This document shows positions 405-21,560 of a DNA stretch of 40,375 nt, piece by piece. The stretch covers positions 1 through 40,375 of the forward strand of contig JAPDKE010000042.1 in assembly GCA_029258725.1 (NCBI GenBank), given 5' to 3'. Numbering within the stretch: the stretch's first letter is position 1; every line of letters starts with the position of its first letter. The DNA is from a bacterium (GTDB lineage Bacteria > Hydrothermota > UBA3072 > JAPDKE01). The translations under genes and the position numbers were made by a program. The notes beneath the pieces are model-generated. The model saw nothing but the letters and a program-made list of their open reading frames with translations, was not told the DNA's origin and did no database searches.

Positions 405-500
405 GACCGGTGAAAAGGGCAAACCACGGGAAACCGTGGGGCGCAAAGCCACGGGTCTAAAGCCCCTCCGGGGCTATTGACGGCCGGGCTGCCACCGGGG
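405..500 (+). ncRNA. Cyclic-di-GMP riboswitch, GEMM-I class
   Basis: The conserved GEMM-I landmarks are present in order: AGGGCAAACC, a hairpin closed by a GAAA tetraloop (CCACGG-GAAA-CCGTGG, 424-439), GGCGCAAAGCCACGGGTCTAA, a second hairpin (AGCCCC/GGGGCT, 461-475) and the tetraloop-receptor side GCCGGGCTGCC. The closing stem pairs CCGGTG (407-412) with CACCGG (493-498). The AGGGC element keeps all three G residues, which favours c-di-GMP, but a cGAMP-type GEMM-Ib aptamer cannot be excluded by eye. It lies directly upstream of an intrinsic terminator and the regulator gene at 555, so it probably works by transcription attenuation. Confidence 0.9.
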
Positions 501-3500: not shown

Positions 3501-5474
3501 GTAAAAAATCCAAAAAAGAAACTTATTCTCGATTTCATAAAAATTTTCAAAGGAGAAACTTTCTCTCCGGTTCCAGAACTTCTTCCCTTTTATCATTACT
3601 TCCATGGAAAAAGGAAAAAGGCAGCGGATGAATACGAAAAAGTAAAAAATAAACTTCCTTCCTATCTTAAAGTCCTTTACTCCGCTCTGTTTGAGGAAAG
3701 AAGAAAAGAAGAGATGGCATCTATTCCTCTCTATTATCAGGTATTAATCCAGAGGGAACTTGGGAAAATAAAAAAAGATATCTCGTTAATAGAGAAGTCC
3801 ATGGAAATCGCAGATAGATGTGGAATGGAGTTTGAGAAAGGACTCTCCATGTTCTATCTGGCAGATATGATAAAAGAAGAAAATCCCCAGGAGGCAACAA
3901 AACTCCTCAAACAGTGTGAACCCCTTCTTTCACCCTCTCCGTTTTTCCTCCAAAAGACAAAAGAAACCCTCGCAGACCTTGCCCCGGTTCTTGCAAGAAG
4001 AAAGGGGAAAATTTATCTCGACTCCATCCAGAAGATAACTTCTCTTCTCAATGTTCTCACCTCTGAAAAGAGAATAGAAGACATGCTCAGAAAACTCTGT
4101 GAACTCATGGGGGCGGAGAGGGGAGCAATTCTCTTACGGGAAAAGAAAGATGGAAGACCATTTATAGCAGCAGGATACAGAATAGATACAACAACACTTG
4201 AAGAGGCAAGGTTTGTTTCAAAGAGAATTCTTAGGAAGGGAAGCCAGGGAGAACTTCTCATTGTAACAAATGCACTTGAAGACCCAAGGTTCAAGGATTC
4301 GCCGAGTGTGAGGAAGAACCAGATAAAATCCATCCTGTGTGCTCCCATTGTAACCACGGGAGACCCGTTCGGTGCGGTGTATCTTGACAGCACACTTAAG
4401 GAAGGAATATTCAGCCCTGAAGAAAAGGATTTCCTCCTCGCCATTGGAAGACTTATAGGATTTCTTATAGAAAAAGGGGATATGTGGGACAGGATTGTGA
4501 AGGAGAATGAGTATCTCAAAAAATTACTTGAGCCCCCTGGCTCTTTCCATGGAATTGTTGGAAAATCAAAACCCATGCAGCGTCTTTATTCTCTTATAAA
4601 AAAGGTGGCGATGTCGGAGGCACCCGTCCTCCTTATAGGAGAAACAGGAACAGGAAAAGAACTGGTAGCAAAGGTGATTCATGAACTGAGCGGCAGAAGA
4701 GAAAAACCATTCATACCCATAGACTGCGGAGCAATCCCGGAAACCCTGCTTGAGGCAGAACTCTTTGGATATACAAAGGGGGCATTTACGGGAGCAATGA
4801 AAGAAAAACCCGGATTGATTGAAGAAGCAGATGGAGGAACTGTATTCCTGGATGAAATAGGAGACGCACCCCCATCCATCCAGGTAAAACTTCTTCGTGT
4901 GGTGGATACCGGTATTTTGAGAAGACTGGGGGAAACCTCCCCCCGCGTGGTAGATGTAAGGTTTATTTCTGCCACCAATAAAGACCTGGAACAGCTTGTA
5001 AAAGAAGGAAAATTCAGAAAAGACCTTTATTTCCGTCTCAATGCCTTTACAATAAGAATTCCTCCTCTAAAGGAAAGGGAAAACGATGCAATTTACATTG
5101 CAAACCATTTCCTGAAGATATTGAATCAGAGACATAAAAAGAAAATCAGGGGATTCTCACCGGGTGCCGTTGAACTCATACTTTCCTATTCCTGGCCCGG
5201 GAATGTAAGGGAACTCAAAAGTGCTGTGGAGATGGCATATACCCTTGCTCCTGAAAATGGATACATAACCCCGGAACACCTCCCCGCAAAAGTGAGAGTT
5301 AGCGAAGTCATGAAGGAAGGAGCAAAGATGAGTAAGAAAAAGTTTCTCTATGAACTTGCAATGGAGGCACTGAGAAAAACTCACGGAAACAAAAGCGAAG
5401 CAGCAAAACTTCTGGGAATATCAAGAAGGCACCTCTACCGTATTCTTGCCTTTGGCAAAGATCTGGACAAATAG
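555..5474 (+). CDS. Giant hybrid regulator: PAS x3-HisKA fused to AAA/NTPase-TPR-GAF-sigma54 AAA+-Fis HTH
   Basis: This 1,639-residue protein starts at ATG 555 behind a strong AGGGGGG ribosome site. In order: three PAS domains (about 8-105, 120-240, 250-372), a HisKA dimerisation segment with H-box His399 (IAHDLRQP), then an abrupt switch at about 418-425 to an NTPase with Walker A GERGLGKT (458-465), TPR-like helices (about 690-1130), a GAF domain (about 1156-1309), a sigma54-interaction AAA+ domain (about 1331-1562; GETGTGKE, GAFTGA near 1409, FLDEIG) and a Fis-type HTH (about 1606-1634). There is no HATPase domain, so the HisKA part cannot autophosphorylate alone. The C-terminal half should activate sigma54 RNA polymerase, most plausibly at the promoter at 5582. 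Base composition falls from about 55-62% GC to about 28-42% around 1,805, coinciding with the domain switch, so a recent fusion or a chimeric assembly must be considered. Confidence 0.88.
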   Translation: MEVKEAIRDCPAILFLLDGEGRIEALSKGFKDYFELSEEKVGRRMDLILGEDVAPGVLDEALRGKPIRFSGRIEINGKEKFVEILLSPIIVGGEVKGILGVGRDRGEERRISFELRKLEESGRLYKLIFDNAGDTIILYDLTGKILLANKRATELWGYSLDELIGFDARKLIAPEYKEESKRLALKLLEEKKPQRVELLEVRKDGRRIWVEGVRVPFADEDGNMIGILSMVRDITEKKELYEKLEESESLMRSVLENAGEPVLVWELGDKMGKGKTIFWNKKAEEVFGWKRDEILGKSPIVLVPDDKIEEARELHRVFLEKGFIRNYETERVTKDGRRIPVELTRALIRREGKPPLVISIVRDISERKRLEMEKEEAHRKALRAERLAAIGELASTIAHDLRQPLSVISNALYYLNMKIKTEDVTLPSAFYPPLVGREKEIETVLSLMEKGKTIVIEGERGLGKTRLLEEIKIRAYIKGFSYIFLDDVDVKYVHPENFLSSKRRILATSSIHLEGDFEIIKLKRLKKRHVRELIKRALGEPERELLDFIFSLSGGLPLSIVETIRILLSSGYIEKHRRKLKLKEKIELKSLENLFEKRLNTLTPEERKFLRVASIFEKEIPLGIMEKLGIKNAFFLATSLLLKGFLYPEEGKWRLRSRLLREYLLRSIPPEERRKLHKKIVKIAENSPASFLAYHVREGGFPPEKVRYISMKAACEAMRKRNYAEAVSYLVHVRDVLDDGGKILLCMCYNKCLMYKETLDIIKNITAPTIPYIHFLYGLSLLRTGNQKGEEILKKMALRERKKLKYRASGELLRYYIHKKDMEKGKEIIKKHGLPDNASINYVYFRMLFEFYQKNYDEILKFERKMIKYMPLSAEKGGFYGILGMVYHMKRKYNKAEEYYRKAIETYRKVGEEKEEGKILYHLGMMCIEKGELEKAETLLREAQKIFISWEQKSHEDHVLYCLGELYFMKGKFSKAEEILNGVKNPKKKLILDFIKIFKGETFSPVPELLPFYHYFHGKRKKAADEYEKVKNKLPSYLKVLYSALFEERRKEEMASIPLYYQVLIQRELGKIKKDISLIEKSMEIADRCGMEFEKGLSMFYLADMIKEENPQEATKLLKQCEPLLSPSPFFLQKTKETLADLAPVLARRKGKIYLDSIQKITSLLNVLTSEKRIEDMLRKLCELMGAERGAILLREKKDGRPFIAAGYRIDTTTLEEARFVSKRILRKGSQGELLIVTNALEDPRFKDSPSVRKNQIKSILCAPIVTTGDPFGAVYLDSTLKEGIFSPEEKDFLLAIGRLIGFLIEKGDMWDRIVKENEYLKKLLEPPGSFHGIVGKSKPMQRLYSLIKKVAMSEAPVLLIGETGTGKELVAKVIHELSGRREKPFIPIDCGAIPETLLEAELFGYTKGAFTGAMKEKPGLIEEADGGTVFLDEIGDAPPSIQVKLLRVVDTGILRRLGETSPRVVDVRFISATNKDLEQLVKEGKFRKDLYFRLNAFTIRIPPLKERENDAIYIANHFLKILNQRHKKKIRGFSPGAVELILSYSWPGNVRELKSAVEMAYTLAPENGYITPEHLPAKVRVSEVMKEGAKMSKKKFLYELAMEALRKTHGNKSEAAKLLGISRRHLYRILAFGKDLDK

Positions 5475-5490
5475 GACACATTTCTTTACC

Positions 5491-5520
5491 ATGTGACAAT
5501 AATTTAATAGAATGTCACAT
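5491..5520. promoter_or_regulatory. Perfect dyad, candidate enhancer (UAS) for the sigma54 activator
   Basis: ATGTGACA (5491-5498) and TGTCACAT (5513-5520) form a perfect 8 bp inverted repeat with a 14 nt AT-rich centre. It lies about 90-115 bp upstream of the predicted start of the sigma54 promoter at 5582, the usual distance for an enhancer-binding-protein site, and just after the stop codon of a sigma54 activator. It is not followed by a T-tract and so does not look like a terminator. The binding partner is inferred. Confidence 0.6.
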
Positions 5521-5522
5521 AT

Positions 5523-5550
5523 AAAGGGGACATTTTTGTCCCTTTTTTTA
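5523..5550 (+). terminator. Rho-independent terminator after the regulator gene
   Basis: GGGACA (5527-5532), a TTTT loop and TGTCCC (5537-5542), flanked by A and T runs that extend the stem, are followed by a long T-tract. It separates the regulator transcript from the downstream sigma54 operon. Confidence 0.8.
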
Positions 5551-5556
5551 TTTTTA

Positions 5557-5573
5557 TTCTTGAATATCAAGAA
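5557..5573. promoter_or_regulatory. Second dyad next to the sigma54 promoter
   Basis: TTCTTGA (5557-5563) and TCAAGAA (5567-5573) form a perfect 7 bp inverted repeat around ATA. It ends 9 nt before the -24 element, roughly -35 to -51 from the predicted start. It could be an operator or a second activator site; it lacks a T-tract, so it is not a terminator. Confidence 0.4.
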
Positions 5574-5581
5574 CTTATTTC

Positions 5582-5597
5582 TGGCACGGGAATTGTA
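5582..5597 (+). promoter_or_regulatory. sigma54 (-24/-12) promoter
   Basis: TGGCACGGGAATTGTA matches the consensus TGGCACG-N4-TTGCA with one mismatch (GT for GC at -12). The conserved GG (5583-5584) and G(T) (5595-5596) have the required 10 nt spacing. Transcription would start near 5608, just ahead of the AGGAGGTGG ribosome site of the peptide gene at 5623. Confidence 0.85.
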
Positions 5598-5622: not shown

Positions 5623-5772
5623 ATGTTGAGAATTATAGGTATTGTCTTTTTCCTTCTTTCAATCTTTGGAAATGTAGTGGCAAAGAGTGTCATCCATGAT
5701 AATGCAACAAAGGCGGTTGCAGTGGCAGAAGACCCTGATGATTTTCTTCCTCCGGATATTCCAGGAGCATAA
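5623..5772 (+). CDS. Small secreted peptide precursor, 49 residues, under sigma54 control
   Basis: ATG 5623 follows AAAAAAGGAGGTGG, a near-perfect ribosome site at good spacing, and the frame ends at TAA 5770-5772. The product begins with a typical signal peptide: Arg3, then a hydrophobic core IIGIVFFLLSIFG and a plausible cleavage after NVVA (about residue 20). This leaves an acidic mature peptide of about 29 residues ending in DDFLPPDIPGA. I recognise no family. The gene is preceded by a sigma54 promoter and the dyads described at 5491 and 5557, follows a TPR-containing sigma54 activator, and overlaps the next small gene by one base (TAATG). A secreted signal, a bacteriocin-like peptide or an export-linked small protein are all possible; a signal for the neighbouring TPR regulator is my preferred inference. 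Confidence 0.7.
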   Translation: MLRIIGIVFFLLSIFGNVVAKSVIHDNATKAVAVAEDPDDFLPPDIPGA

Positions 5773-5987
5773 TGAAATACGGTTATTCCTACTACTTCGA
5801 CATCTTTCACATCTGGGAAATAAGAATGATTGATGGAGAAAGGCTGGAAGGAGAGATAGTGCACAACAAGGATGGACTGGTTATTATAAGGGTTGACCCC
5901 TACGGACCAAACGAAAGATACATCGCAGTTCCTTCTCTCATGGTCGCCTTCCTCATGCACGGCAGATGGGACGGTCTGCTTTTCTGA
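5772..5987 (+). CDS. Small protein of 71 residues, possibly Sm-like beta barrel, co-transcribed with the secreted peptide
   Basis: The ATG overlaps the TAA of the peptide gene by one base, so translation is probably coupled. The N-terminus is aromatic (MKYGYSYYFDIFHIW) with no signal peptide. The centre (IRMIDGERLEGEIVHNKDGL, then VIIRVDP and RYIAVPSLMVAFL) has the strand-turn-strand pattern DG..LEG..........V seen in small SH3-like or Sm/Hfq-type barrels. That fold suggestion rests only on pattern and is weak. The gene ends 22 nt before a strong terminator, so the operon is exactly two genes. Its role next to a secreted peptide could be immunity, modification or regulation; none is shown by the sequence. 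Confidence 0.7.
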   Translation: MKYGYSYYFDIFHIWEIRMIDGERLEGEIVHNKDGLVIIRVDPYGPNERYIAVPSLMVAFLMHGRWDGLLF

Positions 5988-6008: not shown

Positions 6009-6037
6009 ACCCACCCCTGGAAGGGGTGGGTTTTTTA
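6009..6037. terminator. Bidirectionally placed intrinsic terminator between convergent genes
   Basis: CCCACCCCT (6010-6018) and AGGGGTGGG (6022-6030) pair around a GGA loop, and TTTTTT follows at 6031-6036. It terminates the two-gene sigma54 operon. The convergent minus-strand gene ends inside the T-tract at 6035. Confidence 0.9.
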
Positions 6038-8803
6038 TTTCAACAAAATAAATTTCATCCTTTCTCTTATTCCCTTTCCATACACATGGATAAAGTAGAC
6101 TCCCGGAGACAGTCCAGCACTTTCTATCACAAACTGTTTTTTTCCAGGCACTCCTTCATAAATCCTTCTCACTCTTCTTCCTGATACATCATAAAGGTCT
6201 ATCTTCACAGGTATGGTATAATTTACCTCAAACGCAATCCTCTTCCCCAAAAGACACCTCTCCTTCCTTTCTTCTCTCACTCCTGTAGAGAGAAGCGCAT
6301 CCAGAATTTTTCTTCCAGCAACCTCCGCAACATCCCGTTGCATCCAGGATAAAGGAAATCCAAGAATACATACCCCCGGTTTTTCAAGCCGGAGGATGCC
6401 ACAGGGTTCTCCCTCGGGAAAAGAATCTTCCTTGGTGTCACATGTATAGATAACCCTCACAGTTGAGTCGGATGAGTAAAATAAGGTAGCCCATAAAATA
6501 GCCTCGGCAAAAGAAGTATCAACAGAAAGAGACGGGAACTCACCATTCCCATTCACTCCAATCAGGGACACAGAAAAGTATGTGGAATAATATCCCTTTA
6601 TAACAGAATCCACAAACTCAGGGCCGTAAATCACTGAGATCCCACTTATCATCATTTTTCCCCCTGCACGCAGATAGTCAATAATATCATCTTCCTTCTC
6701 CCTTATATAGAAAGTGGGAGAAGCATCGTCCTGAATCAGGATGAGTTTGTATTGCACAAGTTGAGTTAACGGAGGAGGGTTATCTTCAGAAGAGTTATCC
6801 CAGTATGTCCAGTCGTACGGAGAGAGAAGGGAAAAGTAAAAAGAATCCACAGAGGCATCATCCACCACTTCTGGTGGACCGGAACAATCCACCAGAAGAA
6901 TTTCCCTATCCATTGAAACTGCAAGACCGGTGAGAGTACAGGATGGACTGCTTAACAATCCATTGTAAAGAGCCTGAATGAAGTAATCATATCTTACTCC
7001 CGGAACCACGTCTTCATCCACTATCTGATAAGTATTCACCAGAGTATCAATCACTGTCCACAGACTCTCACTCTCTCCCTTTTTCCACACCAGATATTTT
7101 TCACTCTCCCAGTATCCTTCCCAGGAAATGCATATTCTACGGTAATCCCCCCACGATACGTACCTGAGCAACGGCTTGTATGGAATGCCGCATATTACCA
7201 TTATTTCCCGGCTATATCCACTTTCAAGCTCGGTGGTATCAATCGAAGTAACAACATAATAAACAGTATCACCTGGATGTATATCCACCGAATCCACAAA
7301 TATATTTCTATCAATGGGAGAAGGATTCAGCCGGGTATAAGGACCTCCACTTGTTCCGGAGCGGTAAACGTTATAGGCATAGGAAGGTGAAGGAGAATTC
7401 CAGAGGAGAATGTTCCGGTCGGGTTTCCTTTTCACCTCAATATGGCAAGGAGGGGTGGGAGGGAAATATGGAGGCACCGATAGATCAGGAACACCATCTC
7501 CGTTTATAAAGGCAGTTTCACCTCCTATCACCACAAAATCTCCCTTGTATCCGTCACCATCTGTGTCCACTCCAGGAATATCATAAAAGTATGCCATTTT
7601 CCAGGAAGTATTAACAAGAGAATCAAAGGAATAATCATTGAGATTATAAGATCTGTGAAAATCATATCCTCCAAAAAGAGCAAAAGCAATCCTTATGCTC
7701 TCTCCAGGTGCAAGATAGAATGGACCAGTGGAAAGTAGAAAACGGGTATCGTTTATAGAATCAACACCAGTGGGCCAGGAATATCTCGGATCCGCATTTA
7801 CGCCTCTGGGACCTATCTGATCCGGGTCAAGAGAGCGATTGGAAAGAAGTATATACTTTGCGCTGTCGGGAAAAACATAGTAAGCATCGGATGGTGTGTG
7901 GTTCACATCTTCTGGATTTGCAGGATCGGAAGGACCCCAATCAAGAGAGGGATCGGGGTCCGAGAGCCACCAGTTATAGGAAACACAGGGAATTTCTGGA
8001 CCAAGAAGCCTGCACCCTATACACTCTGGTTGATCGGATGGACCTCCACTGTATGCATCATTGTACCCGTCCGCATCCGCAATCCAGGCTGTCAGAATAT
8101 AATCTTTCACCGAACGGTACTTCGGCAAGCCACTCACATTTATTCCGGTGTATCCACTTCCATTCCATGTATAAAGAATTGTTTCGGAAGGCCACAGGGT
8201 ATCTATGGGGTCTCTCCATATACAGAGTCCTGTAATATCGTCCTGTGCACCAAACCATGCACTCCAGGGATCAGAAATCACAGGATGACAGTCCCCATCC
8301 ACATAGAGTCCAACATGCACACTGTCGAGATAATAGTTTCCCACGTTTTTTATAACATAATCAATAATCACACCTGCCTTCACAGCCCCATGTGCCCATG
8401 CGTAACTTCTTTCATGGACCTGAAGCCCCATGGGAAAGTATTCGGGTGCTGTACCCCCGCATGTATCCCAGTATATACAATAAAGGTCGTGGTCCGATAC
8501 TGCTTCATCTCCCGTAAATTCATAAATGGTATCCTGGGACCCCGGTGAGAATTCTTCATATGGCTGCCATCCGTCCACCCCATAAGAAACCCTATAACAT
8601 TCCTTATAACATTCCTTAACCACAGCGCCTATCCAGAGAGATCCCACGAAGAGGTATTCTCTTCCAGAACCCTGTGGGAATTCAAAACTCCACTCATACC
8701 GGGAATAGTCTCCATTGGTGCCTATTCTTCCTGCGTTGGTTATAACAATGTTAAGATCGTTTATCTGATGAGATTTCAGGGTAATGAAAAACAGCAGTAA
8801 CAT
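6035..8803 (-). CDS. Large secreted protein with FnIII-like modules and C-terminal Por/FlgD-type sorting domain
   Basis: This 922-residue protein has a short signal peptide (MLLLFFITLKSHQ), a long extracellular region, a Ca-binding-like stretch VDTDGDGYKGD, at least one fibronectin-III-like segment (KRKPDRNILLWNSPSPSYAY and onward), and a glutamine-amidotransferase-like fold segment beginning REILLVDCSG that includes DYLRAGGKMMISG. It ends in a sorting-type tail (YDVSGRRVRRIYEG, SPGVYFIHV, KFILLK). Such tails direct export or surface anchoring through type IX-like systems in FCB and related phyla. ATG 8803 is preceded by AAAGGAGGTG, and the gene follows xseA by 14 nt at the end of the long minus-strand gene train. 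Catalytic function is not evident; a cell-surface or structural role is likely. Confidence 0.85.
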   Translation of the reverse strand: MLLLFFITLKSHQINDLNIVITNAGRIGTNGDYSRYEWSFEFPQGSGREYLFVGSLWIGAVVKECYKECYRVSYGVDGWQPYEEFSPGSQDTIYEFTGDEAVSDHDLYCIYWDTCGGTAPEYFPMGLQVHERSYAWAHGAVKAGVIIDYVIKNVGNYYLDSVHVGLYVDGDCHPVISDPWSAWFGAQDDITGLCIWRDPIDTLWPSETILYTWNGSGYTGINVSGLPKYRSVKDYILTAWIADADGYNDAYSGGPSDQPECIGCRLLGPEIPCVSYNWWLSDPDPSLDWGPSDPANPEDVNHTPSDAYYVFPDSAKYILLSNRSLDPDQIGPRGVNADPRYSWPTGVDSINDTRFLLSTGPFYLAPGESIRIAFALFGGYDFHRSYNLNDYSFDSLVNTSWKMAYFYDIPGVDTDGDGYKGDFVVIGGETAFINGDGVPDLSVPPYFPPTPPCHIEVKRKPDRNILLWNSPSPSYAYNVYRSGTSGGPYTRLNPSPIDRNIFVDSVDIHPGDTVYYVVTSIDTTELESGYSREIMVICGIPYKPLLRYVSWGDYRRICISWEGYWESEKYLVWKKGESESLWTVIDTLVNTYQIVDEDVVPGVRYDYFIQALYNGLLSSPSCTLTGLAVSMDREILLVDCSGPPEVVDDASVDSFYFSLLSPYDWTYWDNSSEDNPPPLTQLVQYKLILIQDDASPTFYIREKEDDIIDYLRAGGKMMISGISVIYGPEFVDSVIKGYYSTYFSVSLIGVNGNGEFPSLSVDTSFAEAILWATLFYSSDSTVRVIYTCDTKEDSFPEGEPCGILRLEKPGVCILGFPLSWMQRDVAEVAGRKILDALLSTGVREERKERCLLGKRIAFEVNYTIPVKIDLYDVSGRRVRRIYEGVPGKKQFVIESAGLSPGVYFIHVYGKGIRERMKFILLK
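8593..8616. repeat. 12 bp tandem duplication inside the secreted-protein gene
   Basis: TATAACATTCCT occurs twice back to back (8593-8604 and 8605-8616). In the encoded protein it gives the repeated residues KECYKECY near the N-terminus, a small in-frame duplication that adds a second cysteine. Confidence 0.9.
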
Positions 8804-21485: not shown

Positions 21486-21560
21486 TCGGGGCGAGTGGAT
21501 TTGAACCACCGACCTCCTGCTCCCAAGGCAGGCGCGCTAACCAGGCTGCGCTACGCCCCG
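21486..21560 (-). tRNA. tRNA-Pro(UGG)
   Basis: Read on the minus strand, CGGGGCG (5' acceptor) pairs with CGCCCCG, followed by discriminator A. The D-arm GCGC-AGCCTGGTTA-GCGC, the anticodon arm CCTGC-CTTGGGA-GCAGG with anticodon TGG, and the T-arm GGTGG-TTCAAAT-CCACT are all intact. The 3' CCA is not encoded. The 5' part overlaps the 3' end of rdgB by 24 nt, and the 3' end lies 12 nt before uvrA. Confidence 0.96.

Follow-up and report, generated by a model that had tools for sequence, protein, structure and literature searches.

A recurrent sigma54-type locus in WOR-3 genomes: a giant regulator, palindromes and genes for a putative secreted peptide and a predicted Hfq-fold protein

The window, by which we mean the whole 40,375-nt stretch of DNA analysed here, encodes a very large regulator (P0001; Table 1). 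Pfam matches assign to it three PAS domains, a STAND-type ATPase, TPRs, a GAF domain, a sigma54-activation AAA+ domain and a Fis-type helix-turn-helix (HTH), and a histidine-kinase-like H-box stretch was recognized by eye. The recognition helix reads ISRRHLYRIL in the translation. A c-di-GMP-I-GGC riboswitch aptamer lies ahead of the gene, and its position suggests that a second messenger may in turn control the activator. Behind the aptamer comes a terminator-like hairpin, the two lying immediately 5' of the regulator gene. No riboswitch reached gathering score in four relative or paralogue loci, only L021 and L181 of which had been picked because a regulator start lies in them.

On the plus strand, the regulator stop codon is followed in turn by dyad 1, an intrinsic terminator, dyad 2, a -24/-12 promoter with GT rather than GC at -12, a Shine-Dalgarno sequence, ORF1 and ORF2. 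Both dyads are perfect and lie where the preliminary description had placed them; the strong terminator between them was absent from that account. This terminator would set the downstream genes apart from read-through of the regulator gene. The half-sites of dyad 1 are TGTGACA (5492-5498) and TGTCACA (5513-5519), with starts 21 bp apart. When the 148-nt gap was dinucleotide-shuffled 2000 times, some dyad with arms of at least 7 and a loop of at most 20 appeared in 36.7% of cases, in 13.6% when the arms were at least 8 (same loop limit), and in 9.4% with arms of at least 7 and a loop of at most 3. As shuffled sequences often hold such dyads, neither dyad is significant taken singly.

Table 1. 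Features of the regulator locus and its proposed target genes (window coordinates)
Feature	Position	Strand	Basis or remark
c-di-GMP-I-GGC riboswitch aptamer	409..497	+	Rfam RF03167, 67.2 bits (gathering 59)
Regulator P0001, 1639 aa	555..5474	+	Pfam matches
Dyad 1, ATGTGACA-N14-TGTCACAT	5491..5520	.	Proposed enhancer (UAS)
Intrinsic terminator of the regulator gene, AAAGGGGACATTTTTGTCCCTTTT	5523..5546	+	-13.4 kcal/mol
Dyad 2, TTCTTGA-ATA-TCAAGAA, promoter-proximal palindrome	5557..5573	.	Positional counterparts in relatives
IHF-like sequence TATCAAGAACTTA	5565..5577	+	Consensus scan, 9/9 match to WATCAANNNNTTR
-24/-12 promoter TGGCACGGGAATTGTA, sigma54-type	5582..5597	+	Sequence; same place before relatives' ORF1
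ORF1, 49 aa, proposed secreted peptide precursor	5623..5772	+	Hydrophobic N-terminus, AVA then EDPDDFLPPDIPGA
ORF2, 71 aa, predicted small Hfq-fold family member	5772..5987	+	Profile and predicted fold

ORF1 products are short (42-78 aa in 20 listed relatives); they begin with hydrophobic residues, and their ends vary and are often rich in proline. GGPNDGGGFIDELK is repeated twice in the product from G125, and GPDAPPPSP four times in that from G087. The N-terminus is hydrophobic in all 21 listed products, and an AxA motif is present in 13 of the 21. Against a profile built without it, window ORF1 scored E 0.037 and another reading frame in the window 0.031, so that its homology by sequence alone appears weak.

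The assignment of ORF2 to its family is firmer (E 2.2e-6 against a model built without the window protein). A predicted structure for one family member (pLDDT 82.7) is a five-stranded barrel with matches to Hfq, and the model of window ORF2 itself (pLDDT 70.3) has the same five-strand order. The predicted family barrel superposes on several Hfq entries at 1.0-1.1 A over 51-52 residues, although it lacks the N-terminal helix of Hfq/LSm proteins and is only 12-20% identical to the listed Hfq chains. Of 11 members, 4 match the Hfq_1 profile, at E 0.018 or weaker, and window ORF2 is not one of these; a Foldseek search with the family model gave no match at E < 1e-3, its three best rows being a diheme cytochrome domain. 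On these models we predict an Sm/Hfq fold for the family. By eye, a GAF-type gene follows the ORFs in G079, G080 and G087, and a histidine-kinase-like gene in G126. ORF2-ORF1-ORF2 arrays with diverged peptides are present at L111, L112 and L107.

The window regulator has matches in 111 of the 147 genomes of the phylum at E <= 1e-80, many of them to the sigma54 part only. Relatives of ORF2 occur in 25 of the 147 (E <= 1e-3) and of ORF1 in 22 (E <= 0.01, several weak), the window genome included in both counts. The named records belong to candidate division WOR-3 and Stahlbacteria/TA06 and are all MAGs; a contig scan with ORF2 recovered ten named WOR-3-type loci and one with the regulator no named record. 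No second genome was found in the genus or order of the window organism. The relatives' regulators are likewise giant (about 1500-1800 aa, with TPR, GAF, sigma54 and Fis parts), and 3' of many of them lie short palindromes and, about 42 nt ahead of ORF1, a TGGCA-N7-TGC promoter, with ORF2 following ORF1 in four families of relatives. This layout of palindromes, promoter, peptide and often an Hfq-fold protein is repeated downstream of WOR-3 giant regulators, so that what seemed an isolated palindrome pair can be tested as a regulatory module that many WOR-3 genomes share.

The statistics below use 27 loci, the window and 26 relatives hand-picked because a promoter-like match lies close to an ORF1 or to a large regulator; the genomes are akin, so the loci are not independent. 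The lack of a regulator beside the module excluded G072 and G075. Among 39 further regulator ends, 27 have no promoter-like match and 12 do; six of the 12 are in the statistics, five of the other six joined the palindrome count only, and L152 was omitted. A palindrome score of at least 6 was reached in 22 of the 26 relative loci (24 of 31 with the five additional loci), whereas 60 shuffled sets averaged 4.35 such loci and never exceeded 8. In many loci the palindrome centres lie at -72/-73 and at -141 to -144 from the -24 box, often at exactly 72 and 143 bp, which puts them about 70 bp from each other; those of G125 lie at -62.5 and -128.5. By eye, G107, G108, G111, G112 and G113 have a solitary GTGCGACA half-site and no good partner. 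Most relatives have two enhancer-type palindromes, the window one.

Across the relatives, the type of site tracks the type of HTH. The SRRHLYR or SKRHLYR helix (window, G125, G126, G127 and G128a) pairs with TGTGACA-type half-sites; SRRHLYR, the helix of the window regulator, is common to four relatives of the same class whose sites use the half-site of dyad 1. TRRTIYKY (G013 and G092, from different families) pairs with GTATAC, NRRTI(Q/E)R and close forms (G067a, G077a, G078 and G093) with GCGACA, GRTSIYR and GRKSIYR (G076, G079, G080 and G082) with TGTGTCA or TGTATCA, and GRRS(L/M)HR (G074 and G077b) with TGTGCCA. Where one genome has paralogous modules, these differ from each other in helix as well as in site (G128a/b, G067a/b and G077a/b). 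Over all 351 pairs of loci, helix similarity correlates with half-site similarity (r 0.255; 2 of 10,000 permutations), as it does over the 275 between-family pairs (r 0.228; 29 of 10,000). These tests used automatically picked half-sites, wrong picks included, except that the window half-site was supplied from the dyad of the preliminary description, the automatic picker having chosen otherwise. Such pairs offer material for reading a recognition code of Fis-type HTHs in sigma54 activators.

Because the window helix is shared with relatives that use TGTGACA, we regard dyad 1, an inverted repeat upstream of the -24/-12 promoter, as the likely enhancer of the adjoining regulator, with half-sites one helical turn further apart. 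The Fis-type HTH would bind its TGTGACA and TGTCACA, the AAA+ ring would act on sigma54 polymerase at the promoter, and ORF1-ORF2, the genes for a secreted-type peptide and an Hfq-fold protein, would thereby be switched on. The preliminary description had proposed dual control, for example by an activator and a repressor, and its activator half holds up: the half-site recurs at relatives with the same helix, and dyad 1 occupies the place of their promoter-proximal enhancer. It had also made the dyads depend on their presence in homologous loci. Most of these do have palindromes, but none has the N14 spacing of dyad 1; the half-site starts are 11 bp apart in G125-G128, a trait of those sites rather than of UASs in general, against 21 bp in the window. 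TGTGACA-N4-TGTCACA (at most 2 mismatches) is present at the G125-G128 modules and absent from the window genome.

Further copies of dyad 1, which the preliminary description had suggested seeking upstream of other -24/-12 promoters, did not turn up. Elsewhere in the 2.1-Mb assembly nothing matches it with 0 or 1 mismatch; the next-best are two places with 2 mismatches, and when 3 were allowed a backward-pattern control gave 4 places against 10. Dyad 1 was rejected on this count as a regulon-wide operator in the window genome. In G128, TGTGACA sites also precede two other sigma54-like promoters (on C223 and C412; L207/L211 and L214), which lie ahead of genes for a putative exported protein and for a membrane protein, so a small TGTGACA regulon may exist there. 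G126:C43 has one TGTGACA site and no promoter by the filter used.

Two other readings of dyad 1 seem improbable to us. It could be an RNA element, in which hairpin 1:2, a pairing of its right arm with the left arm of the terminator, and the terminator itself form an attenuator in the 3' transcript. All three hairpins fold (dyad 1 at -7.9, the rival pairing at -5.7 and the terminator at -13.4 kcal/mol), yet in the lowest-energy fold the dyad 1 hairpin and the terminator coexist next to each other, and the palindromes of the relatives examined track the HTH rather than any RNA partner. We give as little credence to the idea that dyad 1 is fortuitous and that the regulator binds the terminator palindrome GGGACATTTTTGTCCC. 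The 12-mer core of the latter, GACATTTTTGTC, is identical, by eye, to the core of one UAS in G126 and one in G127, and its centre lies at -47.5 from the -24 box. However, its flanks are GG/CC and not GT/AC, in almost every relative the enhancer-type sites stand further from the promoter than it does, and the full TGTGACA half-site occurs twice in dyad 1. Given the shared core, the terminator may be a decayed or second site of the regulator, alongside dyad 1 as its likely enhancer.

For dyad 2, an architectural site of HU/IHF type is most likely and a better fit than a repressor operator. The IHF consensus behind this reading, WATCAANNNNTTR, comes from other phyla. In the window a match to it without a mismatch overlaps dyad 2, spanning roughly -43 to -31 relative to the inferred start, between enhancer and promoter. 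With this foreign consensus, IHF-like matches of at least 8/9 occur in 10 of the 27 loci, compared with 1.7 in shuffles, and six of the 10 lie at -16 to -20. Palindromes centred at -20 to -14 from the -24 box score a mean of 3.27 with the window excluded, against 2.29 (sd 0.21) in shuffles, none of 500 of which reached this value. The window genome encodes one PF00216 protein, HU and IHF not being told apart. This single HU/IHF-family protein would bind dyad 2 and put a bend in the short segment that links the enhancer to the promoter.

The repressor half of the dual-control proposal, in which dyad 1 would serve the activator and dyad 2 a separate repressor that blocks sigma54 polymerase, fares worse, and we consider a dedicated operator unlikely. 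Dyad 2 is a perfect palindrome right beside the -24 box, and some relatives have palindromes of their own at its place (TTATTGAATATCAATAA in G128a and TCTTGAAATTTCAAGA in G069). Against an operator, a perfect IHF consensus overlaps it, and similar elements (TTGA-N3-TCAA) stand at the same distance before L195 and L186, which are non-module sigma54 promoters of the window genome; dyad 2 is therefore no gene-specific operator. It is more probably a promoter-proximal element that serves several sigma54 promoters of this genome. Among 18 TGGCACNNNNNTTG places there (19 for the backward control), L183 and L195 have IHF matches of 9/9 and 8/9 at -16/-17; apart from these and L186, the places have weaker matches or none. 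A phylum-wide pattern count gave 5 in the window genome against 1 for the control, to which we attach little weight because the control ignores coding bias. Dyad 2 was also considered, and rejected, as a second enhancer of the same regulator, its sequence being untied to the HTH and different from that of dyad 1. The 12-mer GAATATCAAGAA occurs both in the HTH codons (5416-5427) and in dyad 2 (5562-5573).

Taken jointly, dyad 1 as the UAS of the regulator for ORF1-ORF2 and dyad 2 as an HU/IHF-type architectural site form a reading that we hold with reasonable confidence. Known systems resemble parts of it. In the sections available of a Desulfovibrio study, IHF consensus is printed as WATCARxxxxTTR, an IHF site at -43 works at orp2, and a -42 site of orp1 made no difference (PMC3897727). 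The window similarly has, between its proposed enhancer and the promoter, an IHF-like sequence near -43; it differs from the orp promoters, as they are presented there, in that its genome has one HU/IHF-family gene and no IHF pair, and in that the site is also a palindrome. Sigma54 enhancer-binding proteins with a Fis HTH and palindromic UASs are described in available portions of work on Clostridiales (PMC6615313) and Desulfovibrio (PMC4641369), and in the former similar HTHs bind similar motifs. Like these regulons, the WOR-3 loci have a UAS upstream of a -24/-12 promoter that would be read by a Fis-type HTH. Unlike what those portions present, the WOR-3 regulators reach about 1500-1800 aa with STAND, TPR and GAF parts, the target is a peptide and an Hfq-fold protein, and a rigid 70-bp site pair occurs in many relatives.

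RRNPP systems, as outlined in the accessible part of PMC10075063, are found in Firmicutes and combine a propeptide of 10-100 aa that has a Sec signal, and in some cases internal repeats, with a TPR receptor of 250-500 aa encoded by an adjacent gene. The window likewise has a small putative propeptide of exported type beside a putative TPR receptor, some WOR-3 propeptides have internal repeats as well, and the 49 aa of ORF1 fall within the RRNPP range. TPRs are present in the regulator by Pfam, and the two genes adjoin, which is not the case in G072 and G075. By the same account, the 1639-aa regulator far exceeds RRNPP receptor length, and the WOR-3 module has a sigma54-type output and belongs to a non-Firmicutes phylum.

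Judged from sequence, the sigma54-driven combination of regulator, peptide and Hfq-fold protein looks like an undescribed signalling module; we found no description of it in the parts of the open-licence PMC literature searched, and that literature gave no WOR-3 secreted peptide and nothing on DUF6982. What appears to be new here is the module and the pairing of enhancer with helix inside it. Peptide signalling outside Firmicutes is a tentative extension, doubtful as it stands: ORF1 would be exported and sensed by the TPR/STAND part of its own sigma54 activator, feeding back via a private enhancer code, while the Hfq-fold partner spreads the response. If so, paralogous modules with different helices and enhancers would be separate channels in one genome, and, if the peptide is the signal, peptide signalling through TPR receptors would take in sigma54 and reach a new phylum. 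A sigma54 switch linked to an Hfq-fold protein would itself be unusual.

The N-terminal part of the regulator varies. The PAS and H-box stretch at 555-1840 corresponds to a Ser/Thr protein kinase in a class relative (G126, L021), which replaces the PAS part; this looks like a domain swap, with an assembly chimera as the alternative. The window genome has a second giant regulator (L181, on contig C11 up to 74535) of kinase-STAND-TPR type. Its STAND-TPR part is 65% identical to that of the window regulator, and visual reading of the DNA shows that it, too, has a protein kinase instead of the PAS part. It runs off the contig end, beyond which its sigma54 part and target would lie. Elsewhere in the window, the C-terminus of a 922-aa neighbour (6035-6240, minus strand) resembles by eye a surface-protein secretion-sorting domain, with no Pfam match, and Rfam identifies a tRNA gene at 21486-21560 (minus strand).
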